Source: an uncultured bacterium (GTDB lineage: Bacteria; Verrucomicrobiota; Kiritimatiellia; PWTM01). From it: 44,184 nucleotides of DNA. Numbering within the stretch: position 1 is the first letter of the stretch; every line of letters begins with the position of its first letter. Where the stretch lies: positions 1 to 44,184 of the forward strand of contig CAACVY010000012.1 of the NCBI GenBank assembly GCA_900661335.1, given 5' to 3'. The notes below the pieces were generated by a model. It had not been told where the DNA came from. It saw nothing but the letters and a program-made list of their open reading frames with translations, and did no database searches. The position numbers and the translations under genes are program-made. Positions 17,890 to 41,586 of the stretch are shown here, one piece after another.

Positions 17890-18408
17890 TCAGGCCACGC
17901 GTTCGAGCACATGGAGAATTTCGCCGATCAGCAAGTAGTGGACATCATCTCGCGGATAAAATTCCGCTTGAATCGCCGCCGGAATGTCGTCAGCCTGCAG
18001 TGGACTGAAGTAGAGCCGTCGACATTCCAGCACACGTTCGGCCTCCCGAAATGCGACCCCGCCGTGAGGGGTTTCCCACGGAGTCAATCCGCATGCCTGG
18101 GCTTTGTCCACATCTCGCCCCGAGTGCGTGCCACAGAACTGGAGCATGGAGCGATGCGAGTCGGGGAAGAAGGATAGCGTGAATACGTCATGGGACTGAA
18201 GGAGTTCGAACGTGTAGCGACTTGGTCGCACGAAACAGAACGCCGCCGGGCGTTCCCACAACACTCCCAGTGCGCCCCAGCTAGCCGTCATCGGGTTGAA
18301 CCGTGCGCGGTTGCCGCCCGTGATCAGCATCCATCGCTGGCCGATTTCGGCCATCGGGCGCACCCACAACGAGAAAGGATCCGTGGCATGAAACTCGGTT
18401 GCGTTCAT
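17890..18408 (-). CDS. Flavin reductase-like FMN-binding protein
   Basis: This 172-residue protein of the flavin reductase-like split-barrel family binds FMN. The family pattern is visible in PMAEIGQRWMLITGGNRARFNPMTASWG (the N-terminal flavin-binding part), RPSRYTFELLQSHDVFTLSFF and MLQFCGTHSGRDVDK. The ATG at 18408 overlaps the stop of the upstream glycosidase gene as ATGA, so the two are probably translationally coupled; the ORF track start at 18792 lies within that gene and is rejected. No partner oxygenase is nearby, and why a flavoprotein should be coupled to a secreted glycosidase is not clear. It could act as a reductase or simply as a flavin-binding protein of unknown role. Confidence 0.8.
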   Translation of the reverse strand: MNATEFHATDPFSLWVRPMAEIGQRWMLITGGNRARFNPMTASWGALGVLWERPAAFCFVRPSRYTFELLQSHDVFTLSFFPDSHRSMLQFCGTHSGRDVDKAQACGLTPWETPHGGVAFREAERVLECRRLYFSPLQADDIPAAIQAEFYPRDDVHYLLIGEILHVLERVA

Positions 18409-20081
18409 GGTGGCAGCCCCTGGACACCCGCCGAGGACTCGCACTCGATCAGCACTAAAGCATCCTCGTCGGCCCCAGGCCGGAGCTCCAGCTCTGCGCC
18501 AACCTGCAGTGGGTGACGTTGTCCAGTCCGGGGGTCGGTCCAGTCCGCCCGGACAATCCGGTTCACGCGGGTTCGTTGGAGGCGAATCGGCTGCGCGATT
18601 GGAGTATAGAGTACGATGCGGTCGCCGGAGGGCGTGCTGGCCGCAGCGACCCAACGGCGAACGTCCTTTTCTCCAGGTTGCTCCACTAGCAGGTTTGGGG
18701 CGGGTCGGAGCGTCCAGAAAGGCAAAGACTCGAAGAACGCCCGGATGTGACGCACTTGTTCGGCTCCGGGCATGCGCAGGGCTTGCGGCCATGGAAGCGG
18801 TGTGCCGGAGTTGGGATGGTCCACGGGCGGTCCGGAGCCGTCATCCCACCCCCAAACACCATGGCCACCGTAGGTGAATCCTGCTGGCGGGTGGGTGAGA
18901 AGACCCCACAAGATCGCGCGCCGCGTCATCCACGGTGTGATCGGCGTGCGAGACTGGTAGGCCAGGTGGTGTTCGTAGGCGGGCTCGAGATCCACGATCG
19001 GGCGAGCCGGACCGCGGGACCACTCCGAAGCAGGCGGTCCGCGCACAATCCACTCGAGCGTGGAGGCACTGTCACCGTGCCCGCTTTGATAGCCGACGAA
19101 CGAGTACCAAGCTTCCCCACCAAACTCGCTCGCGACCCAAGACTGCCCACAAGGGTGTAAGCTGACCGGCCCCGACCGACCATCGCCGAAGACGGCCCGG
19201 CCGATCGTTCGCCAGCGCGGCGCGTTGGTTCCACCGTAGTGGCCATCCCCGCCGAGCAGCCAAGCCACAGGCCAGCCTTGCCAACGCGCCCTCATGTAAC
19301 GAGCCAGCCGAATGGCATCTTCCAACGGCAAGTAGCGGCCCGGATCCGTAGGTTTCAATGCCCAAAGCATGACCGGCACATTCAGGAGGCCCGCCTCGGC
19401 CACCGCTCGAGCTCGTCGGTCGAGCCGTTGGAAGAACTCCGGTTGGACCATGATGCGGCCAGTTTCGGATGTGGTGAATGCAAGGCGTCCTTCCCGATCT
19501 CCCGTGGGCGCAGCGCGCCAATGCGTCGCCACCCATTGCACGGCATTGAACCCTTGCTCCGCGCGGGTCCGAAGGTACAGGTCCCATTCTTCGTCCGAGG
19601 ATTTCAAGGCACCGTTCCAGGCCGTATCAGCGAGCCAGAAAAACGGCGTACCATCGGCGTGAACGAAGTGCCATCCGGTACCCGCAACGCGAATCGCGCC
19701 ATGCCGATCCCAGATGGTTCGATTCACCGGTCGGCCACAGACGAATTGGCCGCGAAGCCCATGCAACCCCGCGTCGCTTGCATCCGAGCATTCAGTCTCG
19801 AACGCCCAGATGCCCGGACGGTCAGGCATCCAACGAACCCGCCAAACCGCTCCGCCGTCCCAAAACGCTTCGGTAAGGATCTGCTGACCATCGGGTCCCG
19901 TCAGACGAACGCGAACCGTCACATCTCGCCAAGGATCGGCAGTCAGGGGTTTTTGGCTTCGAAACTCCTGTTCCCACATCTGCCAACAGGGCACGGTGGG
20001 CAGACTTGGTGCTGCCTCCGTTCGCTCAAGCGCAAGAACCACCACCCAAGCACTCCAAATTACCGACCCGGTGCGGTTCAC
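18405..20081 (-). CDS. Secreted DUF4038/apiosidase-like glycoside hydrolase
   Basis: This 558-residue protein has an N-terminal signal peptide (SVIWSAWVVVLALERTEA). A DUF5060-like beta domain follows (about 30-100, with WEQEFRSQ and MPDRPGIWAFETEC). Then comes a DUF4038-type TIM barrel (about 125-450) with DGTPFFWLADTAWNG, EQGFNAVQWVATHW, PVAWLLGGDGHYGG, PIVDLEPAYE and FTYGGHGVWGW. The C-terminal part (about 455-550) resembles the putative collagen-binding domain that usually follows DUF4038. Characterised relatives (GH140) remove apiose from pectic rhamnogalacturonan II, but the family is broad. The start is GTG 20081 with GGAAGGAGAG upstream. It is followed by the flavin reductase gene with an ATGA overlap. 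Confidence 0.82.
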   Translation of the reverse strand: MNRTGSVIWSAWVVVLALERTEAAPSLPTVPCWQMWEQEFRSQKPLTADPWRDVTVRVRLTGPDGQQILTEAFWDGGAVWRVRWMPDRPGIWAFETECSDASDAGLHGLRGQFVCGRPVNRTIWDRHGAIRVAGTGWHFVHADGTPFFWLADTAWNGALKSSDEEWDLYLRTRAEQGFNAVQWVATHWRAAPTGDREGRLAFTTSETGRIMVQPEFFQRLDRRARAVAEAGLLNVPVMLWALKPTDPGRYLPLEDAIRLARYMRARWQGWPVAWLLGGDGHYGGTNAPRWRTIGRAVFGDGRSGPVSLHPCGQSWVASEFGGEAWYSFVGYQSGHGDSASTLEWIVRGPPASEWSRGPARPIVDLEPAYEHHLAYQSRTPITPWMTRRAILWGLLTHPPAGFTYGGHGVWGWDDGSGPPVDHPNSGTPLPWPQALRMPGAEQVRHIRAFFESLPFWTLRPAPNLLVEQPGEKDVRRWVAAASTPSGDRIVLYTPIAQPIRLQRTRVNRIVRADWTDPRTGQRHPLQVGAELELRPGADEDALVLIECESSAGVQGLPP

Positions 20082-21048
20082 TTATCCACTCTCCTTCCTT
20101 ACGAGACGCGCAATGGCACTAGGACGAACTGAATTATATTGCGGTTCTCGCCCGGTCACGACCCTCTCGAGCCTTCGGCATGTGAGATGCTGCGGGGGCA
20201 AATGTTCGGCGAGTGAAGGCCAAGACGGCCGGCTTCCGATTTCGCCGATCGTCTGCGGGACTCCGCCCCGATGTGCTGAAAAAGGACGAAACTGAACCCG
20301 ATGGACCACCGAAGCCCAAGGCCCGTTCCCCACTCCGCCCACTATTCCATTTGGTGTGCTGCGCCCCGGGAAAACTACCGTCTCGGTGTAGTCCAGGCCA
20401 AACGGTGACCACGAATGAACCCAACGCACCGCCATCACCCCTGCGGTCAGATTCACGGAGATACCATCCTGGAACGTTCGGCATCAGGGCTGTCTTCGCG
20501 TGATCGCTTGTTTCCAGGAGCACGGCGCGCCTTGAATTTCACTCCGCATTTACTCCTCATAGCCCATGCCAATTCACGGTCCACCACGACCCTAGTACGG
20601 GGAATACGCTTCGATCTGAAGTCCCGTACCCGAAGCAAACTGCTGACGTTCCAGAGAAAGCCGCTCACTGGCGCACTCGCGACGTTCAGACGTTCATCGA
20701 ACCATCCACGCGCCCGAAAGCAGCCGATGGCCGCGGGGGAGTTTTTACCTTGTGCCACCCCACCGACTTTACGGCCGGAATTGTGAGATCCAGTCGCGCA
20801 GGACGTGCTACGAGGAGGGTCACCCCACTCGTGCACCCACGCACCCATCCAGGCGCTAGTTTTCCAAGGTAGTCGGAAGAATCCCTTGCGGCTTCGTTAT
20901 TTGTATGTCGAGAACCCTTGGTCGAGGCGTCCACCAGCTCACCAGGCGAATCCCCCTCCCAGCTGGCATAGCACGCGACAGTCATCTCATGAGCGATCTA
21001 AGTTCACGCATGGAATCCACTCGTACCCTTCAGACCGCGAGTGCTTCA
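20082..21048. other. Stretch without recognisable genes
   Basis: Roughly 1 kb upstream of the glycosidase gene contains only short overlapping ORFs with no family resemblance in any frame. Its base composition is visibly less GC-rich than the flanks. One perfect seven-base hairpin, GTACGGG and CCCGTAC, lies around 20595-20630. Together with the RHS remnant that follows it reads as decayed or non-coding DNA. No tRNA, rRNA or transposase remnant was recognised. Confidence 0.5.
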
Positions 21049-21811
21049 TTATCGATATGACGCGCACAAACTGCACACCTCAGCCCCTAATGAACAGCCC
21101 ACCCACCAAAATCGGCCATCGCACACCCCAATGGCGTTTCCGTGTTTGGTTCCTAGCCAGTACTCGTTCGCGACAAGCGTCCTCGATTCAAGCCAGAATC
21201 GGCCCTGAGGTTCGCGACACCGTTCGTACACGCCGAACCTGCTGGAACGAAAACTCCCCTACAGGTCTTCGGGTGTCCAGCTTCTATCAGCCACGGCGAA
21301 CGCTGCCTCGGCCATGAAACATCCTGCGCACGCCAATTCAAATCCCCACACCTCCGCCACTTCATACAGAAATCCAACATTGCCCATTTCGTCTGCCCGT
21401 AGTTCGTACCCGCACCACCGATCGTAGATGGGTCCGTGTTTTTTGAGGCTGTGTCTCGTGCTCTCGAGAAGAATCGATCGCCGTCACCAATGCCCGAGTG
21501 GGTCCCCAAAACGCCACGGACGATTCCGCGCATAGCGATAGAGAGCACATTCCCAGCTGCGAGTCGGAACGGATTCATCTGCAGGAAGCGGCCGAGAGAA
21601 GGAAAGGAGAGGCGGTGACGGTAGTCGTAGAGCAAGAGAAGACAGCTTCGCAGCTGGTGAAGACCAACCGGATGCCGATGGTGGACTTCGCACCAAGCGC
21701 TCTGTGGTGGCCGAAGAAGTACGGCTGGACAAAGACGTCGTAGCGGTATTTATCGACCGCGGTGCCGAGTGCGAAAAGGACGGGGGCCTCGACCAATGGC
21801 CCGTGGACATG
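21049..21811 (-). pseudogene. Remnant of an RHS-repeat protein (core and tail)
   Basis: Three successive pieces of the RHS-associated core occur in the correct order on the minus strand but in three different frames. Frame one (from 21811) gives HVHGPLVEAPVLF, then VDKYRYDVFVQPYFF and STIGIRLVFT. Frame two (from 21635) gives LYDYRHRLSFPSLGRFLQMNPFRLAAGN. Frame three (about 21549-21484) gives LYRYARNRPWRFGDPLGHW. Intact proteins read YxYDxFGxP..IGNRFLFTGRE..YDYRxRxYSPxLGRFLQxDP..AGxxNLYRYxxNxPxxxxDPxG. After DPLG the third frame continues as a Cys-containing tail to 21049, with an early TGA (near 21484) and an internal TAG (near 21259). At least two frameshifts and two stops show that the gene is dead. 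No YD repeats remain upstream. Confidence 0.8.
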
Positions 21812-22113
21812 GCCGGCCAGTCCAACTCTTCCAATCGGCTCGATCTACTCGATGCGTTACGGTTCTCGCCACGGGGGTACCCAGTGAGCCCATCGCGCCG
21901 CCACCGCGTTCAAATACCACCTGCGGATGGGCTGGTCGAGCGGGGCACGCTCCAACCTGACGAACGGCCCAGGATGTTGTCGACTGCCCATCGAGGCGAT
22001 GGTGTGTGTCAGACCCATAGGACGCGCGGTTTCTCGTGAAGTCCAAACGGGACCGACAGTATGGTCGCGGACACCATGCGGTGGGGGCGTCTAGTATGAA
22101 AGCCTCTTAAGCG

Positions 22114-22195
22114 GTTTGAGAACCGTATGACCAACCGCAGTTCGGAGCTGGATACCGCCATCGAAAGACAGGTCTTGCACTCATACTTCTCAAAC
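22114..22195. repeat. Long inverted repeat upstream of the RHS remnant
   Basis: GTTTGAGAA (22114-22122) plus GTATG (22125-22129) is complementary to CATAC (22182-22186) plus TTCTCAAAC (22187-22195). This gives 14 pairs around a two-base bulge and a 52-base loop. A short palindrome, AACGAC-G-GTCGTT (22193-22205), overlaps the right arm. It lies between the 3' end of the eboC-like gene and the RHS remnant, so it could be a transcript end, a mobile-element relic or a structured RNA. No target duplication or transposase was seen. Confidence 0.4.
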
Positions 22196-22239
22196 GACGG
22201 TCGTTGTCACCAGAGCTCTTGGTCCTTGCGTGGGGCCAA

Positions 22240-22959
22240 TTAAGTGACCGGAATAGCCCTCCGAAAGATGGCGTGGGCGCCGGCGAACAGGGCGAGCACG
22301 CCCCCCACCACTGGGGCGTCCGGGTGAGGCGACGCCCACACAGCCACCGCCTGGAAGATCGGCAACGCGCCGAGCAGGAACCCTACACGGCGCCGAAGTG
22401 AGGGCCGAATCTCCTCGCGCCGCGCCAGGGCCGACAAAGCAAACACCCAGGCGATCCAAACCCCCAACGCCAGGGCCGTGCGCCAACCCCAGCACTCCCA
22501 CGACAGCTGGGTCGTCACCGCCCCCATGCATAGCGCCGTACCGCGACATGCCGCCAAGGTGGCGGGCCCCCACACTACGTGGGTCCGTGTAACACGGTGA
22601 TACCCAGCAATCAAAAGCGACAACACGACTGCCAAGAGAACGCCCACGGCCCCGGCGCCGCACGCGGCCGCCAGACCCACACACCACGCGACGAACCTCG
22701 CGCGCCGCGCCGCGCGCAACGAAATCGTCCCCGTCACCAACGGCCGGTCAGGGCGGCGAACCCGGTCCTCCTCGAGTCCGGTGATGTCGTTGTCCAACAG
22801 TCCAGCCGCATAAAGTCCCATCACCGAGAGCACCGCGAATCCTGGCCATGGAACGACGGTCCCGCAGTCCGCCATCGCCACCGCCGCGCCCGCCAAAGGA
22901 TCGCCCGGTACCGTGAGGAAATTCGGCGCCCGTAACAGGCGCAGCCATGCACCCAGCAT
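22240..22959 (-). CDS. UbiA-family prenyltransferase, EboC-like
   Basis: This 239-residue integral membrane protein belongs to the UbiA superfamily, which transfers prenyl groups to aromatic or other acceptors. The N-terminus LRLLRAPNFLTVPGDPLAGAAV is the usual first helix. LDNDITGLEEDRVRRPDRPLVTGTIS is the metal/diphosphate-binding loop (NDxxDxxxD-type, with Gly in the second Asp position). The second site is reduced to YHRVTRTHVVWGPATLAACRG. The pairing with a TatD-like hydrolase directly upstream is typical of the ebo cluster, hence the EboC-like call. ATG 22959 was chosen because it begins the conserved helix; earlier starts overlap the upstream gene. The altered loop and short length make activity uncertain. 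It is the last gene of the mutS operon. Confidence 0.75.
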   Translation of the reverse strand: MLGAWLRLLRAPNFLTVPGDPLAGAAVAMADCGTVVPWPGFAVLSVMGLYAAGLLDNDITGLEEDRVRRPDRPLVTGTISLRAARRARFVAWCVGLAAACGAGAVGVLLAVVLSLLIAGYHRVTRTHVVWGPATLAACRGTALCMGAVTTQLSWECWGWRTALALGVWIAWVFALSALARREEIRPSLRRRVGFLLGALPIFQAVAVWASPHPDAPVVGGVLALFAGAHAIFRRAIPVT

Positions 22960-22988
22960 GGAATGGGTGCGCCATGACGTCCGTAGGC

Positions 22989-23837
22989 TCAACGTTGGTA
23001 CAAGGACGGATCCTGCCAGGGGAGATCGAGACGCGGGCGAAACTTCTCGCACTGCCCATAGAAGGTCATCGGGTTATGGAACAACAACTGCTCGATTTGG
23101 TCGGCGTGGAACCCGTTGCCCTTCATGTGCTCGGCCACCTTGGCAAGCGAACAAGGATCCGACACGCCCCAGTCGGCGGAGCTGTTGACCAAGGCCCGCT
23201 CGATTCCCCACCGCTTGAGCAGCCCGATCACACGTTCGGGATTGAGTTTGGAGTACGGATATACGGTCATGCCCGCCCACACACCCGTCCGCCGCACCAA
23301 ATCCATCGTATCCTCGGTGTTGTGGTCCACGATGATCCGGGATTCGTCGTAGTTGAGTTCCCGAAGGATCGCCAAGGTTCGTTCGACCCCATCGCGCTTG
23401 CGGACCTGTGGGGTGTCATGGGGGGTATGGATCAAGATCAACATCCCGCGCGCCTTCGCCAGTTCGAGTTGGCGTTGAAAGATTTCTTCCTCATTGCGCG
23501 TGATCCGGTTAAATCCGATCTCGCCGACCGCCACGCACCGTGGGTGATCCAGATATGGTCCAATGCCTTCCAGCACTTCCAGTGCGAGCTCCCTGTGGTC
23601 TGCCTCTTTGGGGTTGACCGCGATGCACGAGTAATGATCAATGCCATACCGTTCGGCGCGGACGGGCTCGAACTCGAGGTTGAGCATGAAGTGGTCCCAG
23701 AACGTTCCGGCATATCGCCGCGGTGCACCCAGCCAAAACGAGGGTTCCACCACGCACCGAATTCCCGCGCGGTACATGGCGGTATAGTCGTCGGTGGTTC
23801 GGGAGATCATATGGATGTGCGGCTCGATGATGATCAT
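22989..23837 (-). CDS. TatD-family metal-dependent hydrolase, EboB-like
   Basis: This 282-residue amidohydrolase-fold protein has all the expected metal ligands: H7 and H9 in EPHIHM, the Glu of VGEIGFN, the His of LIHTPH, the His of IIVDHNTEDT and the Asp of SSADWG. It is closer to the TatD-like proteins of ebo clusters than to the nuclease TatD, judging from the N-terminal IEPHIHMISRTTDDYTAM and the DHFMLNLEFEPVRAERYGI segment, though this comparison is from memory. GGAGG lies eight bases before the ATG. It starts 20 bases after mutS and is followed by the UbiA-type gene, so all are probably co-transcribed. The substrate is unknown for this family; in cyanobacteria ebo genes are linked to export of scytonemin precursors. 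Confidence 0.78.
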   Translation of the reverse strand: MIIIEPHIHMISRTTDDYTAMYRAGIRCVVEPSFWLGAPRRYAGTFWDHFMLNLEFEPVRAERYGIDHYSCIAVNPKEADHRELALEVLEGIGPYLDHPRCVAVGEIGFNRITRNEEEIFQRQLELAKARGMLILIHTPHDTPQVRKRDGVERTLAILRELNYDESRIIVDHNTEDTMDLVRRTGVWAGMTVYPYSKLNPERVIGLLKRWGIERALVNSSADWGVSDPCSLAKVAEHMKGNGFHADQIEQLLFHNPMTFYGQCEKFRPRLDLPWQDPSLYQR

Positions 23838-26386: not shown

Positions 26387-26682
26387 CGAAACTTAAATCG
26401 GTGGTCTTCCTCGCCGAAGTCGTCCTCCGCATCCTCTGGGACATCCTCCTCATCGCCGTCTCGGAGCAGATCTTTCTCACTCCAGAGATCTTCCTCCGCG
26501 AACCACTCCGCGTCCTCGTCCAACCCTCCCTTGGCCGCGCAGGAAGGACAGACCATGCTGTCCGGGAAGCACACAGGACAGAACTCGGCTCCACACAACT
26601 CGCACGGACGGCACTCAGCATCCCCGTGAACTGGACACACGCCTTCGTCGGGCATCCATTCATGAAAGTTTCTGCGGCCCAT
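26383..26682 (-). CDS. Small Cys-rich zinc-binding acidic protein
   Basis: This 99-residue protein of unknown function has an N-terminal zinc-finger-like cluster, CPVHGDAECRPCELCGAEFCPVC followed by CPSC. The pattern C-x2-H...C-x2-C-x2-C...C-x2-C resembles B-box or double zinc-ribbon modules. The C-terminal half is strongly acidic (EDAEWFAEEDLW, then GDEEDVPEDAEDDFGEEDH), suggesting contact with a basic surface. ATG 26682 was chosen because GGAGG lies eight bases upstream; the ORF track start at 26745 has none. It overlaps mutS as ATGA and is first in the operon, directly behind a good promoter. No function can be assigned. Confidence 0.75.
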   Translation of the reverse strand: MGRRNFHEWMPDEGVCPVHGDAECRPCELCGAEFCPVCFPDSMVCPSCAAKGGLDEDAEWFAEEDLWSEKDLLRDGDEEDVPEDAEDDFGEEDHRFKFR

Positions 26683-26743
26683 GTTCTGGTCCTCCCGGGG
26701 CCCGCAATTCCGCCGCGAGCGTCCCGCGAACATCGCCATGATC

Positions 26744-26773
26744 AACCTAGCACGGGGCCAGACCGCCTGTCAA
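26744..26773 (-). promoter_or_regulatory. Promoter of the zinc protein-mutS operon
   Basis: On the minus strand a perfect TTGACA (26773-26768) is followed after 18 bases by TAGGTT (26749-26744). Transcription would start near 26737 and leave about 55 leader bases. The remaining divergent intergenic DNA up to 27006 shows no gene and no equally clear promoter for the DUF1549 operon. Confidence 0.6.
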
Positions 26774-27006
26774 AAACTGCCCGTTCAGGCTCGCAGATGC
26801 GCGCGATCCGGTCGTCGGTTCGATGGTGGGCTTGGTCCCTCGGCGGTTAGGGGGTCACCCGCCACCGCCCAAGATCGCATTCACCGTCGCACTGTGGAGC
26901 AGTCTTCCACCTCCCGGTTCGGACAATCGCATCCCGGACGGGGGCCGCGCAATAAAACCCGCCGATGTGCGTTGTACTTTGTGTGAACAATCCTCCTGGA
27001 ACGACC

Positions 27007-28596
27007 GTGAATCCATGGACGATTTTGAATCGCCCCCAGGTTTGGAGCGCCGTCGGGGTTGCGGCGGTGTTGTTCGTTTCGGCAGTCACGAGGGCGGACG
27101 ACGTGGTGGAGGATGGTCCTGCCCAGCCCAAGAACCGCATCGATCAAATCGTGTTCGCACGGTTACAGCAGCTCGGCATTGCCCCCGCGCGCAACTGTTC
27201 GGACGGGGTATTTGTGCGTCGCGTGTACTTGGACCTGATCGGGACGCTACCCACGGCCAAAGAAGCGTCTCGGTTCCTGAACGATTCCTCGCCCGACAAA
27301 CGCGCACGTCTCATCGAAGAACTTCTGGTGAGGGAAGAATTTGCCGACTACTGGGCCATGAAGTGGTGCGACCTCCTGCGCGTCAAAGCCGAGTTTCCAG
27401 TCAACCTGTGGCCCAACGGTGTCCAGGCCTACCATCGGTGGATTCGCGACGCCATCCATACCAACATGCCCTACGACCGATTCGTGCGCGCGCTCTTGAC
27501 GAGCAACGGAAGCAATTTCCGAGATCCGCCGGTAAACTTTTATCGCGCGGCACGCGACGGCGACCCCATTGCGTGCGCGCAAGCTGTCGCTTTGACGTTC
27601 ATGGCCGTGCGGCCAGAATCGCTCAGCCGGGAGCAACTGGGCGGGATGGCAGCTTTCTTCACGAAGATTGGCATCAAAGGCACCGGCGAGTGGAAAGAGT
27701 CCATCGTCTTCTTCGATCCCAATAAAGTGTGCACGAATCCCGCTGTGGGTCCCCAGCCAGTCTTTCCCGATGGGACGCCTGCGAAGATTCCTCCGGGCAC
27801 CGATCCGCGTGTCGTATTCGCAGACTGGCTCGTGCGACCAGACAATCCATGGTTCACGCGCGCCATCGCCAACCGCGTATGGTACTGGCTGTTCGGGCGC
27901 GGGATCGTGCACGAGCCGGATGACTTCCGGCCGGAGAATCCACCCTCGAACCCCGAATTGTTGGACTATCTGCAACAGGAGCTTGTGAACGGGCGATTCG
28001 ATTTGCGCCATCTATACCGGCTGATTGCGAACTCGCAGACCTACCAGCTCTCCCCGGTCGCGACCACCGACTCGCCTCAAGCCACAGCCAACTTCGCCTA
28101 CTACCCCATGAGGCGGCTGGAGGCCGAGGTGCTGATCGATGCGATCTGCATGATCACTGGAACGACGGAAGAGTACTCCTCGCAAGTTCCCGAGCCATTC
28201 ACCTGGGTGCCGCGGACGGTCCGGTCCATCCAGCTGGCCGATGGCAGCATCAGCAGCCCATTTTTGGAAATGTTCGGGCGGCCCCCACGCGACACGGGCT
28301 TGGAATCCGAACGCAGCAATCGGCTTACTCCGGAACAACGCCTGCATTTGCTCAATTCCTCTCACATCCGGCGAAAGATTGAACAAAGTCCCAAACTGGC
28401 CACGTTGTACTCGTTACGCGATCCGCAGGAAATTGCTGTGCGCGCGTACTTGACTGTGTTGTCGCGGTACCCGTCGGCGGACGAACAACAGCGCGTGCGG
28501 GAGTATCTCCAGAACGGTCCGGCGCGAGGTCGCGACGCGGTGATCGATATCGTGTGGGCATTGTTCAATAGTTCCGAGTTTTTGTATCGACACTGA
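27007..28596 (+). CDS. DUF1549/DUF1553 domain protein (PSD1 type)
   Basis: This 529-residue exported protein has a DUF1549 domain (about 40-230) starting RIDQIVFARLQQLGIAPA and containing FVRRVYLDLIGTLPTAKEASRFL and EFADYWAMKWCDLLRVK. The DUF1553 domain (about 260-525) starts DPRVVFADWLVRPDNPWFTRAIANRVWYWLFGRGIV. The family is abundant in Planctomycetota and Verrucomicrobiota, probably takes part in handling sulfated or complex polysaccharides, and has no proven activity. The cytochrome-c CxxCH domain often found at the N-terminus (PSD1/PSCyt) is absent. GTG 27007 gives a compact signal peptide (QVWSAVGVAAVLFVSAVTRA) with only a weak GGA upstream; ATG 26965 is an alternative. A DUF1501 gene follows after 25 bases. 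Confidence 0.85.
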   Translation: MNPWTILNRPQVWSAVGVAAVLFVSAVTRADDVVEDGPAQPKNRIDQIVFARLQQLGIAPARNCSDGVFVRRVYLDLIGTLPTAKEASRFLNDSSPDKRARLIEELLVREEFADYWAMKWCDLLRVKAEFPVNLWPNGVQAYHRWIRDAIHTNMPYDRFVRALLTSNGSNFRDPPVNFYRAARDGDPIACAQAVALTFMAVRPESLSREQLGGMAAFFTKIGIKGTGEWKESIVFFDPNKVCTNPAVGPQPVFPDGTPAKIPPGTDPRVVFADWLVRPDNPWFTRAIANRVWYWLFGRGIVHEPDDFRPENPPSNPELLDYLQQELVNGRFDLRHLYRLIANSQTYQLSPVATTDSPQATANFAYYPMRRLEAEVLIDAICMITGTTEEYSSQVPEPFTWVPRTVRSIQLADGSISSPFLEMFGRPPRDTGLESERSNRLTPEQRLHLLNSSHIRRKIEQSPKLATLYSLRDPQEIAVRAYLTVLSRYPSADEQQRVREYLQNGPARGRDAVIDIVWALFNSSEFLYRH

Positions 28597-28621
28597 AGAT
28601 ACCGCAGCAGGAGGCACGACG

Positions 28622-29956
28622 ATGAAGACGAATCCAAACACGAACTTGACCCGACGAGAGGTCATGTCCACCACGCTGCTGGCGGTGGGTGGATGGTGGC
28701 TGGTGGGCCCGGAATCCCGTGCGGCCTCGAGCGTGCCGAACGCGGGACGGGCCAAAGCAGTGATTCAAATCTGGATGTGGGGAGGGCCTTGCCACATCGA
28801 CACCTTCGACCCCAAACCGAAGGCCGGGTACGACTACTGCGGCCCGCTCGACAAAGACATCCCCACCAACGTGGACGGCATCCGAATCAATGAGAACCTT
28901 CCCATCCTCGCCAAGAACGCGGACAAGTACGCGATCATCCGTACGATGACGCACGGGATCAATGCGCATGAAACTGCGTCGTATGTGGTCCAGACTGGTC
29001 GCAAACCGGGCGATGGGATTGTTTACCCATGCGTCGGTGCGGTGGTCTCGTACTTCAAGGGCTACCGGGGTGGCTACAAGGGCTTGATCCCGCCCTACGT
29101 CGTTCTCACGCGTCCTCAAGGACGTTTCTCGGAAGCAGGTTTTCTCGGCAACCGCTACAAGCCGTTCGCCACCGGCGGCGACCCATCGAGCCGCACTCGG
29201 TTCGTGGTGGAGGGAATTGTGGCCGAAGGGATCACCGAAGAGCGCCAGAAGGCCCGGCGCGATCTCATGTTGGGGTTGGACCGGCTGCGGGCCGCACGCC
29301 CGTCGGATCCGGCGATCCAGGAACTCGACCAGGCGGACCACCAGGCCTACGAGCTCATCTTGGGCGATGCAGGCAAGGTGTTCGACCTGAACCAAGAAAA
29401 GGACGAACTGCGGGATCGCTATGGGCGCACGAAGTTCGGCCAGGCGTGCCTGGTCGCGCGACGGTTGGTGGAGCGGGGCGTCCCCTACGTGACCATCAAC
29501 TACGAGGGCTGGGATACGCACAAGCAGCATTTCACTGCCATGAAGCGCATGCTGCCCGAACTCGATAAGGGTTTCGGCACACTGCTGGAGGATCTGCACG
29601 AACGTGGCTTGCTGGACACGACGATCGTGTGGTGGAGCGGGGAGTTTGGGCGCACGCCGCGGGTTCAATGGGAGCCGCCATGGAATGGCGGGCGCAATCA
29701 CTTCGGTCGCGTGTTTTGCGCCGTGGTGGCTGGCGGCGGCTTCAAAGGCGGGCGCGTGGTGGGAGAGACCGACGAGAAAGGCGAACAGATCGTGCGTCGG
29801 CCCGCGTACCCGTGGGAGCTGATCCGCACCATGTACGTACTGCTCGGCATCGATCCTTCCGCCACCTTGCCACATCCGCAAGGCCGCACGGTGTACGTGA
29901 GCCCCCAACCGAACGAAGGCTACGAAGGCGGCGAGTTGGTCACTGAACTACTATGA
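28622..29956 (+). CDS. DUF1501 domain protein with Tat-like signal
   Basis: This 444-residue protein belongs to DUF1501, related to sulfatases and alkaline phosphatases. A twin-arginine motif near the N-terminus (LTRREVMSTTLLAVGG) suggests folded export. Family segments are VIQIWMWGGPCHIDTFDPKP, RTMTHGINAHETASYVVQTGR, YVTINYEGWDTHKQHF, WWSGEFGRTPRVQ and GGRNHFGRVFCAVVAGGGFKGGRVVGETD. The metal ligands seem complete, but no substrate is known. It always accompanies DUF1549/DUF1553 genes in such operons and follows one here after 25 bases. The next gene may overlap its stop as ATGA (start 29953) or start at 29971. Confidence 0.9.
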   Translation: MKTNPNTNLTRREVMSTTLLAVGGWWLVGPESRAASSVPNAGRAKAVIQIWMWGGPCHIDTFDPKPKAGYDYCGPLDKDIPTNVDGIRINENLPILAKNADKYAIIRTMTHGINAHETASYVVQTGRKPGDGIVYPCVGAVVSYFKGYRGGYKGLIPPYVVLTRPQGRFSEAGFLGNRYKPFATGGDPSSRTRFVVEGIVAEGITEERQKARRDLMLGLDRLRAARPSDPAIQELDQADHQAYELILGDAGKVFDLNQEKDELRDRYGRTKFGQACLVARRLVERGVPYVTINYEGWDTHKQHFTAMKRMLPELDKGFGTLLEDLHERGLLDTTIVWWSGEFGRTPRVQWEPPWNGGRNHFGRVFCAVVAGGGFKGGRVVGETDEKGEQIVRRPAYPWELIRTMYVLLGIDPSATLPHPQGRTVYVSPQPNEGYEGGELVTELL

Positions 29957-29970
29957 CCCGGAGCCTCCCG

Positions 29971-32223
29971 ATGTCATGGTTCCATAAGTTCGGTGGATGG
30001 TCGGTGGGATGGGGGCTGGCGTTGGCGTCCGCCTGGGGCCAGCAACGCGAACCCCATGCGGCGTACATCTTCCCGGCTGGTGGCATGCGCGGAACCACGT
30101 TCGAAGCGGTTCTCGGCGGCCAGTATCTCGACGGCGCTACAAACCTATTCGTGTCCGGTCGCGGCGTGCGCGGAGTCTGTCTGCGCCACATCCGTTGGCT
30201 CACGCCCCAGCAGTTGAACGGCTTGCGGAACAACTTCGACAAGTATCAGCAACTGCTGGCAATGTCGCGGACAAACGAAACGTACAAAAAAGAAGCCGAG
30301 GATCTCCGGCGGCGACTCGAACAGCAGCTGCGAGAAATCGGCATTGACGAGTTCAGTATGCGGGCACTTCAGGAATATCGCCGCATGGTGAGCGATCCCA
30401 AACGGCAGGTGAATCCGGCCCTCTCGGAGACCGTTCGGCTACGGATTGAAATTGATCCCGACGCGGAAGTGGGTGAACGAGAAGTCCGCCTCCAAGGCGC
30501 CTTGGGAATCACCAACCCGCTCAAGTTCCATGTAGGCGTCCTGCCCGAAAAGCAAGAAAAAGAGCCCAACGACGTGGGCCCCAATGTAGTGACCACCCAG
30601 CCGCCATTGGTGCTCAATGGCCAGATTCTCCCGGGCGACGTGGACCGTTTCCGTATTCGAGCACGAAAGGGCGAACGTCTCGTCGCCTGGGTCCAAGCCC
30701 GAGCGCTCATTCCATACTTAGCGGACGCCGTGCCGGGCTGGTTCCAAGCCGTGCTATCCATCTACGATGCCGACGGCCATGAACTCGCCTATTGCGACGA
30801 CAACCGGTTCGATCCCGACCCAGTCGTTAGCATCGAGGTGCCTGCCGACGGCGAGTATGACATCGAGATCCGGGACTCAATCTTCCGAGGCCGGGAAGAT
30901 TTCGTGTATCGGATCACCGTGGGCACTGTACCCTACATCACCGGCATCTTCCCGCTGGGCGGCCCCGTGGGCACCGAAACGCCGGTTCAGTTGGTCGGCT
31001 GGAACCTTCCGAAGTCCGTCATCCCGTTTCGCCCCACCGCCCCCGGAACGTTCCCAATCGCCGTGCGTGCGGGGGACTTGCTGTCCAACTGGCAGCCGTT
31101 CCGCGCCGATACCTGGCCCGAAGCCATGGAACGAGAACCCAACGATGACCCGACCGCCGCCCAACCGGTCACCGCGCCCTCGATCGTCAATGGTCGGATT
31201 CAAACCCCAGGAGATCGCGATGTGTACCGCTTCGAAGCGTCCGCCGGCGTCGAAGTCGTGGCCGAGGTCTACGCTCGGCGATTGAACTCGCCGGTTGATT
31301 CCATTTTGATTTTGCAAGACTCGAGCGGACGCGAGATCGCGCGCAACGATGATCACACCGACCCGGCCGCAGGCCTGGTGACACATCAAGCGGACTCCCA
31401 ACTGCGAACCCGAATCCCGTCCAACGGCGTCTATTTCCTGGTCATCACGGACACGCAAACCAAGGGAGGGCCCGACTTCGCGTACCGCCTACGTCTCAGC
31501 ACTCCTCGCCCTGATTTCGAACTCCGCGTCGTGCCGGCCTCGGTCAACCTCCGCCCAGGCGCTACGGTCCCCCTCACGGTGTTTGCCGTCCGTCGCGACG
31601 GGTTCCAGGGCCCGATCGACCTGGAACTGGTGAGCCCGACTAACGGGTTCCGCCTCACCGGAAATCGAATCCCCGCCGGGCAAGACAAAGTTCGGATCAC
31701 CTTGACCGGGCCGGCTCAACCCACCGGCCAACTCATTCCCCTCAAGTTGGAGGGCGTGGCCACGATCGGCGACCGTGTCGTGCGGCGGCGAGTTGAACCC
31801 GCCGATGACATGATGCAAGCCTTCTTCTATCGCCATCTCGTGCCCGCGCAGAATTGGTATGCGTTCATCGTGGCCAGCCAGTTCCGCGCCATGCCGCCGA
31901 TCGAACTGGCCGTTCCGGTGCCGGTGCGCCTGGTTCCCGGCAAAACCAGCACCGTACGAGTTCGGAGCTTGATCGGGAATGCCAAGCGACGGTTCGCCCT
32001 TGAGCTCAATGATCCGCCCGAAGGACTGACGCTCGAGAAAGCGAACTGGAGCTCGGACCAGGTGGAACTGCTGCTGAAGGCCGACCGGGAAAAATCCAAA
32101 CCGGGTACCTCCGGTAACCTCATTGTCGAAATCTTCGCGGACGCCGGGCAAGGTGGGCGGAAGTTTCTGATCGGGGTCCTTCCCGCTATCCCCTTCGAAA
32201 TCGTGCCTCCCGAGCCGCCGTAA
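29971..32223 (+). CDS. Secreted PPC-domain protein
   Basis: This 750-residue exported protein starts with a signal peptide (FGGWSVGWGLALASAWG) and an N-terminal beta domain (HAAYIFPAGGMRGTTFEAVLGGQYL). A first PPC-type domain (about 205-320) contains LNGQILPGDVDRFRIRARKG. An IPT-like stretch (ITGIFPLGGPVGTETPVQLVGWNL) follows. A second PPC-type domain (about 405-515) contains VNGRIQTPGDRDVYRFEASAG, and the C-terminus has two immunoglobulin-like parts. PPC domains bind ligands or help secretion; the protein probably acts outside the cytoplasm with its DUF1549/DUF1501 partners. GGAG lies seven bases before ATG 29971; ATG 29953 overlaps the previous stop but has no such site. Confidence 0.8.
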   Translation: MSWFHKFGGWSVGWGLALASAWGQQREPHAAYIFPAGGMRGTTFEAVLGGQYLDGATNLFVSGRGVRGVCLRHIRWLTPQQLNGLRNNFDKYQQLLAMSRTNETYKKEAEDLRRRLEQQLREIGIDEFSMRALQEYRRMVSDPKRQVNPALSETVRLRIEIDPDAEVGEREVRLQGALGITNPLKFHVGVLPEKQEKEPNDVGPNVVTTQPPLVLNGQILPGDVDRFRIRARKGERLVAWVQARALIPYLADAVPGWFQAVLSIYDADGHELAYCDDNRFDPDPVVSIEVPADGEYDIEIRDSIFRGREDFVYRITVGTVPYITGIFPLGGPVGTETPVQLVGWNLPKSVIPFRPTAPGTFPIAVRAGDLLSNWQPFRADTWPEAMEREPNDDPTAAQPVTAPSIVNGRIQTPGDRDVYRFEASAGVEVVAEVYARRLNSPVDSILILQDSSGREIARNDDHTDPAAGLVTHQADSQLRTRIPSNGVYFLVITDTQTKGGPDFAYRLRLSTPRPDFELRVVPASVNLRPGATVPLTVFAVRRDGFQGPIDLELVSPTNGFRLTGNRIPAGQDKVRITLTGPAQPTGQLIPLKLEGVATIGDRVVRRRVEPADDMMQAFFYRHLVPAQNWYAFIVASQFRAMPPIELAVPVPVRLVPGKTSTVRVRSLIGNAKRRFALELNDPPEGLTLEKANWSSDQVELLLKADREKSKPGTSGNLIVEIFADAGQGGRKFLIGVLPAIPFEIVPPEPP

Positions 32224-32406
32224 CCCCTCCAGAGAGTCCCGATGGCGAAACGCTGTGCACGAAAGCGGATGGCCGTCGCCGAAGAGTGTTGCTCGCCCCA
32301 ACGGCGTTCCCTCTCTCTCGCCACGTCGAGAGGATGAGTGCTTTCCCGCACCCGCGAGAGCCTGGAATGCAGCCCCACCGCGCCGCCCCGCGAGTAGCGC
32401 AGCTTG

Positions 32407-32423
32407 CGATTGATACGCAATCG
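32407..32423. promoter_or_regulatory. Small inverted repeat before agl23-like gene
   Basis: CGATTG (32407-32412) and CAATCG (32418-32423) are perfect inverted repeats with a five-base loop, ending 16 bases before ATG 32440. It could be a regulator site or a short RNA hairpin near the ribosome binding site. The rest of the 216-base gap shows nothing else. Confidence 0.25.
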
Positions 32424-32439
32424 TGGCAGGAATGGAGCA

Positions 32440-34047
32440 ATGAACCGTCCGGTGATGTGGCTGCTCTTCATTGCAGTCTTGGCCGTTGGAGTGGCGACGC
32501 GAGCACCACGACTCGGTACTCGTCCCATGCACACCGACGAGGCGGTTCAAGCCGTCAAATTCGGGGAGCTCCTGGAAACTGGCCACTACCGTTACGATCC
32601 CCGCGAATACCACGGCCCGACCTTGTACTACGCCGCAGTGGCTTGGGCCCACCTGCGTCGCGTACGCACATTCGAACGTTGCGACGAAATTCTTCTGCGG
32701 ACTGTGCCCTTGTTGTTCGGGCTAGCGACCCTGCTATGGCTCATCCGCATCTCCCCGCCGCTGCGCACCAGCGGACTCCTTTCCGCCGGCGTCTGGATAG
32801 CGACCCAGCCGTTCCTCGTGTTTTACAACCGGTACTTCATCCAAGAGTCGCTCCTCGTTTTCTTCACGGCTGCATCGGTGGGATCGCTGTGGCGCTATCT
32901 GATTTCGCCAGCCCCCAGCCGTGCAATTGTGACCGGCGCTTGGTTCGGCGCCATGCTGGCCACGAAGGAAACTGCGGTGCTGGCATGGGCGGCGCTCGTA
33001 CCGGCCATACTCGCGGCCTGGGCCTCGGGAGTTCCACCGCCGTGGCGAACGCGCGGGTGGCTCAGCTTCGCCCGTGATAAATTAGCCGGCGCGTTGGCGT
33101 TCCTAACCGTCGTGGTGGTGTTTTACTCCTCGTTCTTCACCCACTGGCAAGGCGTGCCGGACATCGTCCGCGCCTTCGCCTACTTCGCCCAACGCGCCAC
33201 CGGACAGGGACACGAAAAACCCTGGTGGTGGTATCTGCAATTGCTCTTCGCATATCGCGCGGGCCCTCTGGGCATCTGGAGCCAATGGTCCCTCGGCGTG
33301 TTCTCTCTCGTCGCGATCGTGACAAGCATGGCGCCCGTCCGCCGCGCGCGTCCCGATCCCCATGAGCCGATCCAATCCGATCGCCCATGGAAAGTCTTCA
33401 TGGCCGTGTGGGTGCTCACGCTCCTCGCCGTCTACTCGGCCATTCCCTACAAGACGCCCTGGTTGATGATGAGCCCGCTGTGGGGCATGTGCGTATTGGC
33501 CGGCTTCGGACTTCAAAGCGTCTGGAACCTCACACTCGGCCACCGACGCTGGCCCCGGTGGGTGGCGCTCGTAACCTTTCTGTTGGGCCTGGCCGACACG
33601 GCCCGCCAAAACCATTGGATTCAGGGACGCTGGATGGCGGACCCGCGCAATCCCTGTGTCTACTCGCACACCTCCACCGATCTGCTCCACGCCGTGCGCC
33701 TCGTGTACGATGCCACCCAACAAGTCCCCACCGGCCGGGACACTCCCATCTTCGTGGTCGCCGAAGAATATTGGCCTTTGCCCTGGTATCTGCGCGCCTA
33801 CCGTCGTGTGGGCTACTGGTCCCAGTTGCCACCCCAATGGCCTGAACCGCCCGTGATCGTCCTCACCAATCCGTCGCTCATGCCCGCCGTCGAGTCCGCC
33901 TTGGGTCCAGGTTTTACGCCCAGTCTCTTCGGCCTGCGGCCGACCGTCGCAGTGGTGGTCTACGTGCGGAACGACATCTGGGAACGCGTGCTCGCACAGC
34001 GAGCTGCTCGACGCGCCTCTCCGAGTCCCGCGCCGTCGTCGCCATGA
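32440..34047 (+). CDS. Agl23-like membrane glycosyltransferase (TIGR03663 type)
   Basis: This 535-residue polytopic protein is of the GT-C fold, like dolichyl-phosphate-mannose protein mannosyltransferases. MHTDEAVQAVKFGELLETGHYRYDPREYHGPTLYY contains the catalytic Asp-Glu of the first external loop and is characteristic of the TIGR03663 group, annotated as flippase activity-associated protein Agl23. Roughly ten hydrophobic helices follow (for example LLFGLATLLWLI and LAGALAFLTVVVVFYSSFF), ending in a soluble C-terminal domain. It probably uses a lipid-linked sugar on the outer side of the membrane. GGAG lies upstream of ATG 32440. The stop overlaps the apbE start as ATGA. Confidence 0.8.
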   Translation: MNRPVMWLLFIAVLAVGVATRAPRLGTRPMHTDEAVQAVKFGELLETGHYRYDPREYHGPTLYYAAVAWAHLRRVRTFERCDEILLRTVPLLFGLATLLWLIRISPPLRTSGLLSAGVWIATQPFLVFYNRYFIQESLLVFFTAASVGSLWRYLISPAPSRAIVTGAWFGAMLATKETAVLAWAALVPAILAAWASGVPPPWRTRGWLSFARDKLAGALAFLTVVVVFYSSFFTHWQGVPDIVRAFAYFAQRATGQGHEKPWWWYLQLLFAYRAGPLGIWSQWSLGVFSLVAIVTSMAPVRRARPDPHEPIQSDRPWKVFMAVWVLTLLAVYSAIPYKTPWLMMSPLWGMCVLAGFGLQSVWNLTLGHRRWPRWVALVTFLLGLADTARQNHWIQGRWMADPRNPCVYSHTSTDLLHAVRLVYDATQQVPTGRDTPIFVVAEEYWPLPWYLRAYRRVGYWSQLPPQWPEPPVIVLTNPSLMPAVESALGPGFTPSLFGLRPTVAVVVYVRNDIWERVLAQRAARRASPSPAPSSP

Positions 34048-34940
34048 GCTCGGCCACCCCCGAGAATGTCACCCACAACATTCGCGGGCAGGTCTGGCGC
34101 TTCGCGGCCTACGCGATGGCCACCGAATGGCAAGTCTTCTTCGACCGCCGGCGAAGCCCCGCACAGGCGGACGGCGCTGCCACCGCCGCCCTGAACCTGC
34201 TGCCGCGACTGGAACAACTTTGGTCACGGTTCATTCCGCACAGCGATATCAGCCGCTTGAACTTTTCCCAGGGCCGCCCAGTGGTCGTGGCCCCAGAAAC
34301 CTGGGATCTGTTGCGGCTTTGCTTGCGCCTGCGCGCGGATACCCATGGGTGTTTCGACCCGGCCTATGCCACGCCACTCAAAGTGCTGCGCGCACTCAAG
34401 GACGGACCAATCCTTCATTTCGATCCCGCCTCCCACTCCATCCAGCTGGCGCACCCCGAGATTCGTTTGGACCTGGGTGCAATCGGAAAGGGATACGCGC
34501 TCGACCTGATGGGCCGCCTCCTACACGACGACTGGGATCTGGACGACTTCTGCCTCTCTGCCGGTGGCAGTACGGTCCTCGCGGGCCATGCGCCGACATT
34601 TGCCGACGGCTGGCCGGTCACCGTGGCGGGCGCCGAGTCCCATCAAATACTCCACCTCGCCCAGCGAGCCTTGAGTGCCAGCGGTTTTGAGGTACGCGGC
34701 GCTCACATCGTAGATCCACGAACCGGCGAGCATCCGGTCCGGTACCGCGGCGTATGGGTGCTGGCCAAGACCGGGGCGGAAGCCGACGCGCTTTCCACGG
34801 CGTTCGCAGTGATGACGCCCGACGAAGTACGACAATGGTTTCGCGCCCCGCGCATCCGTTGCGCGGCACGGCTGAAATTGCTTCCGTCCGAAGGCGGCGG
34901 CGTAGTGGATCTGGGGGAGTGGCCTTCACTCCAGGGTTGA
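34044..34940 (+). CDS. apbE: FAD:protein FMN transferase (ApbE family)
   Basis: This 298-residue ApbE-family protein attaches FMN from FAD to a threonine of target flavoproteins. Family motifs are LDLGAIGKGYALD (about 145-157), SAGGSTVLAG, HIVDPRTGE (the HxxDPxTG motif, about 227-235) and TGAEADALSTAFAVM, which carries the metal/FAD-binding DALSTA. No lipoprotein signal or N-terminal Cys is seen, so it seems to be cytoplasmic, unlike most ApbE proteins. It starts inside the stop of the Agl23-like gene (ATGA) and is therefore coupled to it. The usual substrates (Nqr/Rnf subunits, FMN-bind proteins) are not in this window, so its client is unknown. Confidence 0.9.
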   Translation: MSSATPENVTHNIRGQVWRFAAYAMATEWQVFFDRRRSPAQADGAATAALNLLPRLEQLWSRFIPHSDISRLNFSQGRPVVVAPETWDLLRLCLRLRADTHGCFDPAYATPLKVLRALKDGPILHFDPASHSIQLAHPEIRLDLGAIGKGYALDLMGRLLHDDWDLDDFCLSAGGSTVLAGHAPTFADGWPVTVAGAESHQILHLAQRALSASGFEVRGAHIVDPRTGEHPVRYRGVWVLAKTGAEADALSTAFAVMTPDEVRQWFRAPRIRCAARLKLLPSEGGGVVDLGEWPSLQG

Positions 34941-35424
34941 TCGGTCCGCGATCGTCGGTGGCTCGTCGCCGGGCCTTCGGGGCCAGGGCCGTCGTTCGGC
35001 GGTTCGGATTGTGCCCGCTCGAGTCCTCACGTCGCCGCAGCGCGTCCACCCAGAGCCGCAGGTTAGGGCTTCTCGCTCCTCCGCAAGCATGACGCTGCAC
35101 CCCTCCCATCGTCACCCGCACTCGAGCGCCGAGAGGATCCACCCGCCTGGTCCCTGCCCGGAGCCCATCCCGGACCCACCCGACCATACCCGTTCGAAGG
35201 CTTGGAAAAAGTTTCCGTGGGGCCGTCCAACCCCTTGACAAGCGACTTCAGCTGTCTTGGAACGGTGGACTCCCTCCAGCGACCGCGGTCCCGCAAGGAA
35301 CGCCGCGCACGCCCGCGCAACGCCGAGCGCGGTCATCAATCCCAAGGATCGCATTCGACCCGACGAAACGACGAACGATTCCACGCCACCCTGGAGAAAT
35401 TTGGACCGTGTTCCTTCTCCGTGG
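34941..35424. other. Convergent intergenic region, no gene recognised
   Basis: This 484-base gap lies between the convergent apbE and GT4 genes. Overlapping short ORFs on both strands show no family resemblance and include Arg/Pro-rich translations typical of random GC-rich frames. No hairpin followed by a T-run was seen for either gene. Nothing else can be supported. Confidence 0.5.
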
Positions 35425-36615
35425 CTATGCCAACGGCCCGCTGTAAGGCTCTAAGATTTTCCGCCACTGCTGACGGATCACATCCCACGAGTAGCGGCTC
35501 GCCACCAATGCACGGCCCGCATTCCCCAAACGGCGAGCCAACTCCGGGTCGTTCGCCACGCGCACGATGGTCTCCGCGAACTCCTGCGGCTCAACAATGA
35601 GCGCGTGGTGGCCCAACTCAACCGCAAGTCCTTCCACTGCCTTGGCCGTCGCGATCACCGGCTTGGCTGCCGCCATGTACTCGAGGACTTTCAAGCGGGT
35701 TCCGGACCCTGTAAAAATCGGCGCCAAGCACACCGTGGCGCGTTCGAGGTAGGGTGCCACATCGGGCACGCGGCCCGCCCAGATGATCGCCGGATGCCAC
35801 CGGCCCGTGGGGATCGGGCCGCCGGTGACCAACAACCGAAACCGTCCCGGCATCTGGCGCTCCAACTCCGGTAGTACCGTGTGCGAAAGAAACTCCAACG
35901 CGACTCGGTTTGGCTGATAATCGAGCTTTCCCATGAAAAACAGGACGGTCGGTACGTCGTGCAATGCAGACGCCACCTCGGGTGACACGGCCGCGTGGGC
36001 ACGAGCGGCATGGTCCAGGTCTGTGCCATTGGGCACCACGTGCACGCGGTCGGCTGGCAAGCCGTACCGAAGGCGAAACACCGCTGCATCGGTTTCGGAA
36101 CACGCGATGATTTCATCAGCCGCGTGCGTGACCCGACGTTCCCACGCCTCGACCATTCGTGTCCATAGGTGGGTGCGTCCAAATCGTTCCGCGATGGCCT
36201 GCGCGAGCACATCGTGCGCATCGAGAATGATGGGCGGGCGAATCTCCATCCGGCGGAAGGGCGCATAGGCCCAAATGGAGGTCAGCACGATCACCGCGGG
36301 CTGTTCTCGCACCACCGCGCGCCGAACCCGATCCGAGACCCATGGCAGAAAAAAGTGAAACAGCCCCCAATTGATGCCGATTTTTCTGCGCCCTAAATTC
36401 GGCCAAAACACCTCCCCGCGCCATCGGGGATGCGGCGGTACGGGTTGAATCAGCCAAGCACGCGAACCCAACAGCTGCAGCAACGCCTCGATCCGCCGGC
36501 CGCCTCCAAACGCGATGTGGTTCAGATTCCAGTAGGAGAGCACCAGAATCGGCGCGCCGGGACGCGCGTCGAGTCCTTCGCGGGATGATCGCGCCTCAGC
36601 CATGGGGCCGATCAT
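35425..36615 (-). CDS. GT4-family glycosyltransferase
   Basis: This 396-residue protein has the GT-B two-domain fold of family 4. The N-terminal acceptor domain contains LSYWNLNHIAFGGGRRIEALL. The C-terminal donor domain contains VHVVPNGTDLD, VLFFMGKLDYQPNR, the family signature APIFTGSGTRLKVLEYMAAAKPVIAT and VASRYSWDVI. It probably transfers a sugar from a nucleotide donor in cell-surface polysaccharide or glycolipid assembly. The start overlaps the end of the GT2 gene by 20 bases (GGGA lies four bases before ATG 36615; ATG 36603 is the alternative). It is the third gene of the minus-strand operon. Confidence 0.88.
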   Translation of the reverse strand: MIGPMAEARSSREGLDARPGAPILVLSYWNLNHIAFGGGRRIEALLQLLGSRAWLIQPVPPHPRWRGEVFWPNLGRRKIGINWGLFHFFLPWVSDRVRRAVVREQPAVIVLTSIWAYAPFRRMEIRPPIILDAHDVLAQAIAERFGRTHLWTRMVEAWERRVTHAADEIIACSETDAAVFRLRYGLPADRVHVVPNGTDLDHAARAHAAVSPEVASALHDVPTVLFFMGKLDYQPNRVALEFLSHTVLPELERQMPGRFRLLVTGGPIPTGRWHPAIIWAGRVPDVAPYLERATVCLAPIFTGSGTRLKVLEYMAAAKPVIATAKAVEGLAVELGHHALIVEPQEFAETIVRVANDPELARRLGNAGRALVASRYSWDVIRQQWRKILEPYSGPLA

Positions 36616-37585
36616 CGTTCCCTTTGCCGAGACCGACTCGTCGCTCGAGCCGCCGGATTCGATACAGGAGCTCGTCCTGCGCCGCGCGGACTCGGTCCAG
36701 CATTTCGGCCATCACACCCACCAAGTAGATGAGGACCGCTACGCCCCCCAATGCGGCGGCGACAAAGCCGGCCCACTTGTGCGGCGAGAACCCACCGCTG
36801 TAGATCCGCCAACCCAGGAGGAACAGCGATAACAGCGCGGCAATTGAACCGGGCACGGCCGACAGCCAGCCGAAAAACCGTAGCGGCTTGTAGTCCCGGT
36901 AGGTCTTCAAAATGATGGCGGCCGTGCGCCACCCATAACGCCACAAGTTGTTCGCCACGCGCGATTCGCCGTGCTCACGGGTGCCCCGCACGCGCACGGG
37001 CACCTCGACCATGCGAAGGCCAGCGAACGCCAACGCTAGAAACGTTTCGTGCGTGTAGGTGAAATCTCCCAACAACACGAGCCGCAAGAACGCCTCCGGA
37101 CCATAGGCGCGAAACCCACAGGAGACGTCGTGAAACGTCCGGCCAGTCAGTCGGCTCACCCAACGTGACATGAACGAGTTGCCCCACCGCTTCACCCGCG
37201 GCATCTCCGGCTCCAATGCGGGGTCGAGAAACCGGGACGCAGTCGCGAAGTCCGCCTCGCCTCGCACCACAGGCCCTGCCACGAGCGGAATGTCGGCCGG
37301 ATCGAACTGGCCATCTGCATCGATGGTGACAATCACATCCGCGCCGAGCTGCATGGACTTCTCCAGGCCGCTGCGGAACGCGGCCCCGACACCACGTCGT
37401 ACCGGATGCTGCACCAAGTGCGCGCCTTCCTCTAAGGCAATCGCCGCCGTCCGATCCGTCGAACCGTCATCCACGACCACGACCTCCACCTGGTCCACGG
37501 AAGGAAGTTTGCGTGGGACCCGGCGGATGACGTCGCGCAACGTGGCTTCTTCGTTCAAAGCGGGAATTTGAACGACCAGTTTCAT
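36596..37585 (-). CDS. GT2-family glycosyltransferase, polyprenyl-phosphate type
   Basis: This 329-residue protein has an N-terminal GT-A domain with VVQIPALNEEATL, VEVVVVDDGSTDRT and the metal-binding TIDADGQFDPADIP, then MPRVKRWGNSFMSRWVSRLTG and DVSCGFRAY. Two C-terminal hydrophobic helices (FFGWLSAVPGSIAALLSLFLLGW and WAGFVAAALGGVAVLIYLVGVM) anchor it to the membrane. The arrangement resembles dolichol-phosphate mannose synthase and bacterial ArnC/GtrB-like enzymes, which load a sugar onto a polyprenyl phosphate. That product could feed GT-C enzymes such as the Agl23-like protein nearby (inference). It starts inside the stop of the zinc-ribbon gene (ATGA) and overlaps the GT4 gene. Confidence 0.88.
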   Translation of the reverse strand: MKLVVQIPALNEEATLRDVIRRVPRKLPSVDQVEVVVVDDGSTDRTAAIALEEGAHLVQHPVRRGVGAAFRSGLEKSMQLGADVIVTIDADGQFDPADIPLVAGPVVRGEADFATASRFLDPALEPEMPRVKRWGNSFMSRWVSRLTGRTFHDVSCGFRAYGPEAFLRLVLLGDFTYTHETFLALAFAGLRMVEVPVRVRGTREHGESRVANNLWRYGWRTAAIILKTYRDYKPLRFFGWLSAVPGSIAALLSLFLLGWRIYSGGFSPHKWAGFVAAALGGVAVLIYLVGVMAEMLDRVRAAQDELLYRIRRLERRVGLGKGNDDRPHG

Positions 37586-38478: not shown

Positions 38479-38729
38479 GCGCCGGCATTCTAGGAGTCCA
38501 CGGCGGCCACCGCAACGCAAGGCGCGCCCTCGCCACAGAATGTTCCCAACCGAACTCTCGCGTCGTATCGCCCCAGCTGCGGGTGCACTCAAGAACACCC
38601 TCCAAGCCGCCGACCACTCGCGGTTCCGCGCGTGCAACACAGGGACTGTTCGACGCTTTACGGAACACCGTACCCTGGGGGACTGGCGCCAGCGAAGCCC
38701 TGGGTTGGATTGATCCGATCGAAGTTCGA

Positions 38730-38752
38730 CGCTAAAGTTAGCGAAGGCTAAC
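38730..38752. promoter_or_regulatory. Overlapping operators of the feo operon
   Basis: Two perfect palindromes overlap: CGCTAA and TTAGCG with two bases between (38730-38743), and GTTAGC and GCTAAC with four bases between (38737-38752). The half-site GTTAG/CTAAC is also the half-site of the DtxR box. The second palindrome covers the AAGG that precedes ATG 38756, so binding could block both transcription and translation. Autoregulation by the DtxR/MntR-type protein encoded right after it is the likely reading. Confidence 0.65.
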
Positions 38753-38755
38753 TCC

Positions 38756-41510: not shown

Positions 41511-41586
41511 GTTTGTGGTCTGCTCCCATTGCCATTTCGGCACGAGATTCCACCGTGGGGATACGGCCGCGCTGATCAGGATCTTG

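Follow-up and report, generated by a model that had tools for sequence, protein, structure and literature searches.

The window, by which we mean the whole 44,184-nucleotide stretch analysed here (contig C44 of a 2.63-Mb genome assembly that is 68% complete), contains within a gene-free interval a segment whose sequence marks it as part of a decayed RHS core, broken to such a degree that it cannot be read as one gene. This feature is probably an orphan tip, the dead and degraded 3' end of a polymorphic toxin gene of the rhs type (Table 1). All landmarks of the RHS-associated core lie on the minus strand (21811-21493), which the initial annotation had left unnamed, and follow one another from high to low coordinates in the order HVHGPLVE, YRYDVF.., YDYRHR..GRFLQ and LYRY..DPLG, distributed over three frames. 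The initial annotation had noticed such landmarks in order across three frames with a stop behind them, and translation, profile searches and frame-aware alignment all bear this out.

The NCBIfam model TIGR03696 (Rhs_assc_core) matched two successive frames of the remnant: its positions 30-56 scored 14.1 bits and, in the following frame, its positions 57-76 scored 13.2 bits. The two matches are exactly consecutive, while neither single-frame match reached the cut-off of 32.5 bits. RHS was not found when Pfam was run on ten separate frame segments. With a hidden Markov model of our own, for which 29 RHS cores were taken from other genomes and which was run with filters off against all six-frame segments of the 44-kb window, the top three matches were the three remnant frames, arranged collinearly on the model (18-47, 56-82, 83-101). 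Frameshift-aware dynamic programming gave the remnant 93 half-bits, as compared with 31.0 +/- 4.2 (maximum 43.0) for 100 dinucleotide-preserving shuffles, a value about 15 SD above these controls; the next best tile of the window attained 43.9 half-bits. A frameshift-aware search and a search with an RHS-core profile were the very checks that the initial annotation had named, and both recovered the RHS core.

A paralogue from elsewhere in the genome (contig C41) provided an independent query. It matched 21766-21635 (E 1.5e-6, 43%) and 21638-21537 (E 6.7e-8, 59%) with consecutive stretches of its own residues (36-79, then 80-113), and at the DNA level the two copies share 75% of their bases across about 187 bp (E 4e-27). 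Block 1 of the remnant is 45-48% identical to the copies on C41 and C124, and block 2, which includes YDYRHRLSFPSLGRFLQ (21629-21579, minus strand, second frame), is 59-65% identical to the C41 copy. Ten of the 11 residues of the HVHGPLVE region (21788-21820) agree with the C41 copy in a tblastx comparison, and HVHGPLVE with upstream repeats scored 52 against a shuffle maximum of 44. Block 3 ends in the DPxG junction that divides the core from the variable tail (DPLG at 21504-21493), so that the remnant, when read across its frames, possesses both the TIGR03696 profile match and the DPxG junction.

Table 1. Positions of the RHS remnant, of the gene-free interval in which it lies and of the flanking genes (window coordinates).
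Feature	Position	Strand	Basis or remark
HVHGPLVE, left over from the final RHS unit ahead of the core	21788..21811	-	tblastx against the C41 copy
RHS core block 1 (DKYRYDVFVQPYFF..IRLVFTS), contains YRYDVF	21647..21766	-	frame shared with HVHGPLVE; own-built model 18-47
RHS core block 2 (LYDYRHRLSFPSLGRFLQMNPFRLAA), second frame	21555..21638	-	TIGR03696 positions 30-56
RHS core block 3 (ALYRYARNRPWRFGDPLG), third frame	21493..21546	-	TIGR03696 positions 57-76; own-built model 83-101
Stop codon two residues past DPLG, frame of block 3	21484..21486	-	translation
Putative remnant of a variable C-terminal tail	21262..21483	-	block 3 frame; inference only
Gene-free interval with RHS remnant, 2.16 kb	20082..22239	.	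coding bias nearly absent except in the remnant
UbiA-type gene, flank of the gap	22240-23052	-	Pfam
Apiosidase-like gene, flank of the gap	18405-20081	-	Pfam

The remnant shows two changes of frame, a stop and a deletion, through which about 60 bp of core found in C41 are absent directly upstream of block 1; upstream of the remnant no open frame is present. Stops occur in every frame of the surrounding stretch, 54 in all when the three minus frames are summed. An open frame with RHS/YD repeats ahead of the core, as expected of a functional Rhs toxin, is not present; most likely no functional protein is made from the remnant today. The differences between the remnant and the C41 copy are spread over the three codon positions as 21/10/24, against 4/2/11 for the less decayed pair C41 and C124; although these counts are small, the weaker third-position bias would be in line with relaxed constraint.

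The remnant resembles the C41 paralogue between about 21820 and 21488. Demonstrable RHS sequence thus amounts to about 0.32 kb of the 2.16-kb gap, or about 0.55 kb if a putative tail with weak coding bias is included, so that the earlier view of the remnant as the explanation for most of the gap does not hold. Likewise, of the interval 21049-21811 that had been assigned to the RHS core, the part from 21811 to 21493 stands, and no RHS homology is detectable in 21049-21487. The 420 bp upstream of the remnant show no similarity to RHS repeats (27 of 60 shuffles score equally high), and an extension of the DNA alignment to C41 beyond 21820 was rejected, its score of 50.5 being matched by 51 of 200 shuffles. 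Below 21488, the DNA alignment to C41 scored 66 (shuffle maximum 62.5), a weak signal without support at the protein level.

The gap as a whole has hardly any coding bias, with the exception of about 21.3-21.85 kb. In the 74-residue frame that continues past the core, weak coding bias is seen at 21272-21415, and this segment may be what is left of a variable tail. It resembles none of the tails on C41, C66 and C56, and the homologues with the same tail that the initial annotation proposed to look for in related genomes did not appear: in 288 genomes of the class nothing but the segment itself fell below E 0.02. No Rfam family matched the gap, no tRNA was found, and the part from 20.1 to 21.2 kb matches nothing. 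When the gap was compared at the DNA level with 193 genomes of the class, only two chance-level matches (26-41 bp) were obtained outside its own genome.

RHS 3'-end pieces are present on at least eight contigs besides that of the window. Core or repeat pieces of the same family lie on C41, C124, C66, C56, C40, C74, C51 and C123; they have a common core, which the remnant shares, and differing tails. C124 carries one piece plus a second, decayed one, and the piece on C56 contains a stop. Two tandem RHS 3' ends, 90% identical in DNA over 294 bp, occupy C41 1-1864 (L006), the first of them interrupted by a stop and a change of frame. A second, likewise decayed type of RHS core was seen at C61 7945-8181 (L008) and C18 5841-6075 (L009), with 72% mutual identity over 239 bp. 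Many of the pieces stop at contig ends, as is expected of a repeated core. The whole assembly yielded no RHS-repeat match above the cut-off and no full-length rhs gene; at 68% completeness, and with several pieces situated at the ends of contigs, full-length genes may simply be unassembled.

Our preference for an orphan tip is based on the collinear three-frame core, which is unique in the window, on the DNA match to C41, on the many 3'-end pieces in the same genome, and on the failure to recognise RHS repeats either in the assembly or upstream of the remnant. What can be traced is an rhs 3' fragment, namely the core end plus HVHGPLVE, without a start or delivery region. Its isolation, with no recognisable immunity gene or second tip beside it, and a tail without relatives count against this reading, as does the possibility of unassembled full-length rhs genes. 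We envisage that a fragment with the end of an RHS core and one variable tail, whose identity we infer, would have been displaced to, or inserted at, a site behind the UbiA gene, with neither a start nor a delivery part of its own, and that, not being maintained, it would then have gained two frame changes, the deletion of about 60 bp and the stops. The initial annotation had spoken of a lost polymorphic-toxin or surface gene; a decayed core of a polymorphic RHS family is indeed present, but only a 3' end, and not a whole gene lost at this site, can be traced.

A full-length rhs gene may instead once have stood in place and lost its 5' part, the degraded end alone remaining, an origin that we regard as possible but doubtful. 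The core and HVHGPLVE are what it would leave behind, members of the class possess open frames of 1300-3300 aa with an RHS core of this type, and divergence could have erased the upstream repeats of a full gene; against this, HVHGPLVE lies only about 430 bp, without RHS repeat similarity, from where the intact UbiA gene stops, and in same-genus genomes other genes follow UbiA. Three such genomes (96-98% complete) gave no match to an RHS core of this type. In all three, the hydrolase gene adjoining UbiA is conserved at 83-86%. By eye from translations, the genes that come after UbiA in two of them (G001, G002) are phosphate transporter genes of the pst type, and the third (G003) has a glycerol-3-phosphate dehydrogenase-like gene there. 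A search by synteny in these three for an ancestral empty site revealed no clean one. The junction downstream of UbiA (window 20082-22240) is variable in the genus: G001 and G002 agree, and G003 and the window genome differ. This suggests a rearrangement-prone site.

It is very improbable that the frame breaks stem from errors of sequencing or assembly in an RHS gene that actually works. The window is a MAG contig, the signal itself consists of frame breaks, and the C41 copy likewise has a stop and a frame change; yet the lesions are several and independent, the upstream region has no open frame, the neighbouring genes are intact, coding bias is lost over 2 kb, and the codon-position spread, small as the counts are, differs from that of C41 and C124. 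Chance resemblance of short motifs, to which the sub-threshold scores of every single-frame match might point, we regard as excluded by the margin over the shuffles and by the C41 DNA match.

Orphan rhs-CT/rhsI modules and C-terminal displacement have been described for Rhs loci, with orphan toxin/immunity modules known from Rhs and CDI loci (PMC3150448) and from Rhs of bee-gut bacteria (PMC8125069). The window remnant resembles these modules in being an rhs 3' fragment with a core that ends at DPxG and without a start or delivery region, and its genome resembles them in having several tips with differing tails, some forming tandem arrays with putative immunity genes. Unlike them, the window copy is frame-broken and isolated, without a recognisable immunity gene or a known tail, and its host is a Kiritimatiellia/Lentisphaerae-type bacterium and not a gammaproteobacterium; the nearest named relatives of the hydrolase gene (22989-23837) are from Lentisphaerae, Kiritimatiellae and other Verrucomicrobia MAGs. 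From TIGR03696 members it differs in that its consecutive match falls into two sub-threshold halves without an open gene.

On C66 (434-4054; L007), a core and tail are followed by proteins of 464 and 485 aa, neither with a Pfam or NCBIfam match; the 485-aa protein was unmatched in the relatives searched, its own genome excepted. On C74 (1-3720; L162), a tail related to that of C66 precedes relatives of both proteins and the start of another RHS tip. By position, the two proteins are putative immunity proteins, and the layout of tip, tail, two putative immunity genes and next tip is that of the orphan toxin/immunity modules (PMC3150448, PMC8125069). Around the window remnant, neither an immunity gene nor a second tip is recognisable, and the gap does not match the putative immunity proteins of C66 and C74. 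Only tentatively, and as rather unlikely, do we entertain the idea that this lineage has a large orphan-tip system, active until recently, to whose eroded margin the remnant belongs; such a system would have scattered RHS tips over many loci and would use tandem pairs from an unrecognised family of immunity proteins (about 470-485 aa).

Taken alone, the remnant is a pseudogene fragment missed by single-frame searches at their cut-offs, and ordinary genomic debris of which the same genome holds many similar pieces. Together with these, it suggests that orphan rhs modules, known from enterobacteria and bee-gut bacteria (PMC3150448, PMC8125069), form and decay also in a Kiritimatiellia/Lentisphaerae-type bacterium.

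Elsewhere in the window, MutS is set apart from the gene at 41587-42399 by about 15 kb (26387-41586) in which genes of DUF1549/DUF1501 type and glycosyltransferase-like ones were noted by eye; in the same-genus genome G001 (L055), the homologues of these two flanking genes are only 0.8 kb apart.
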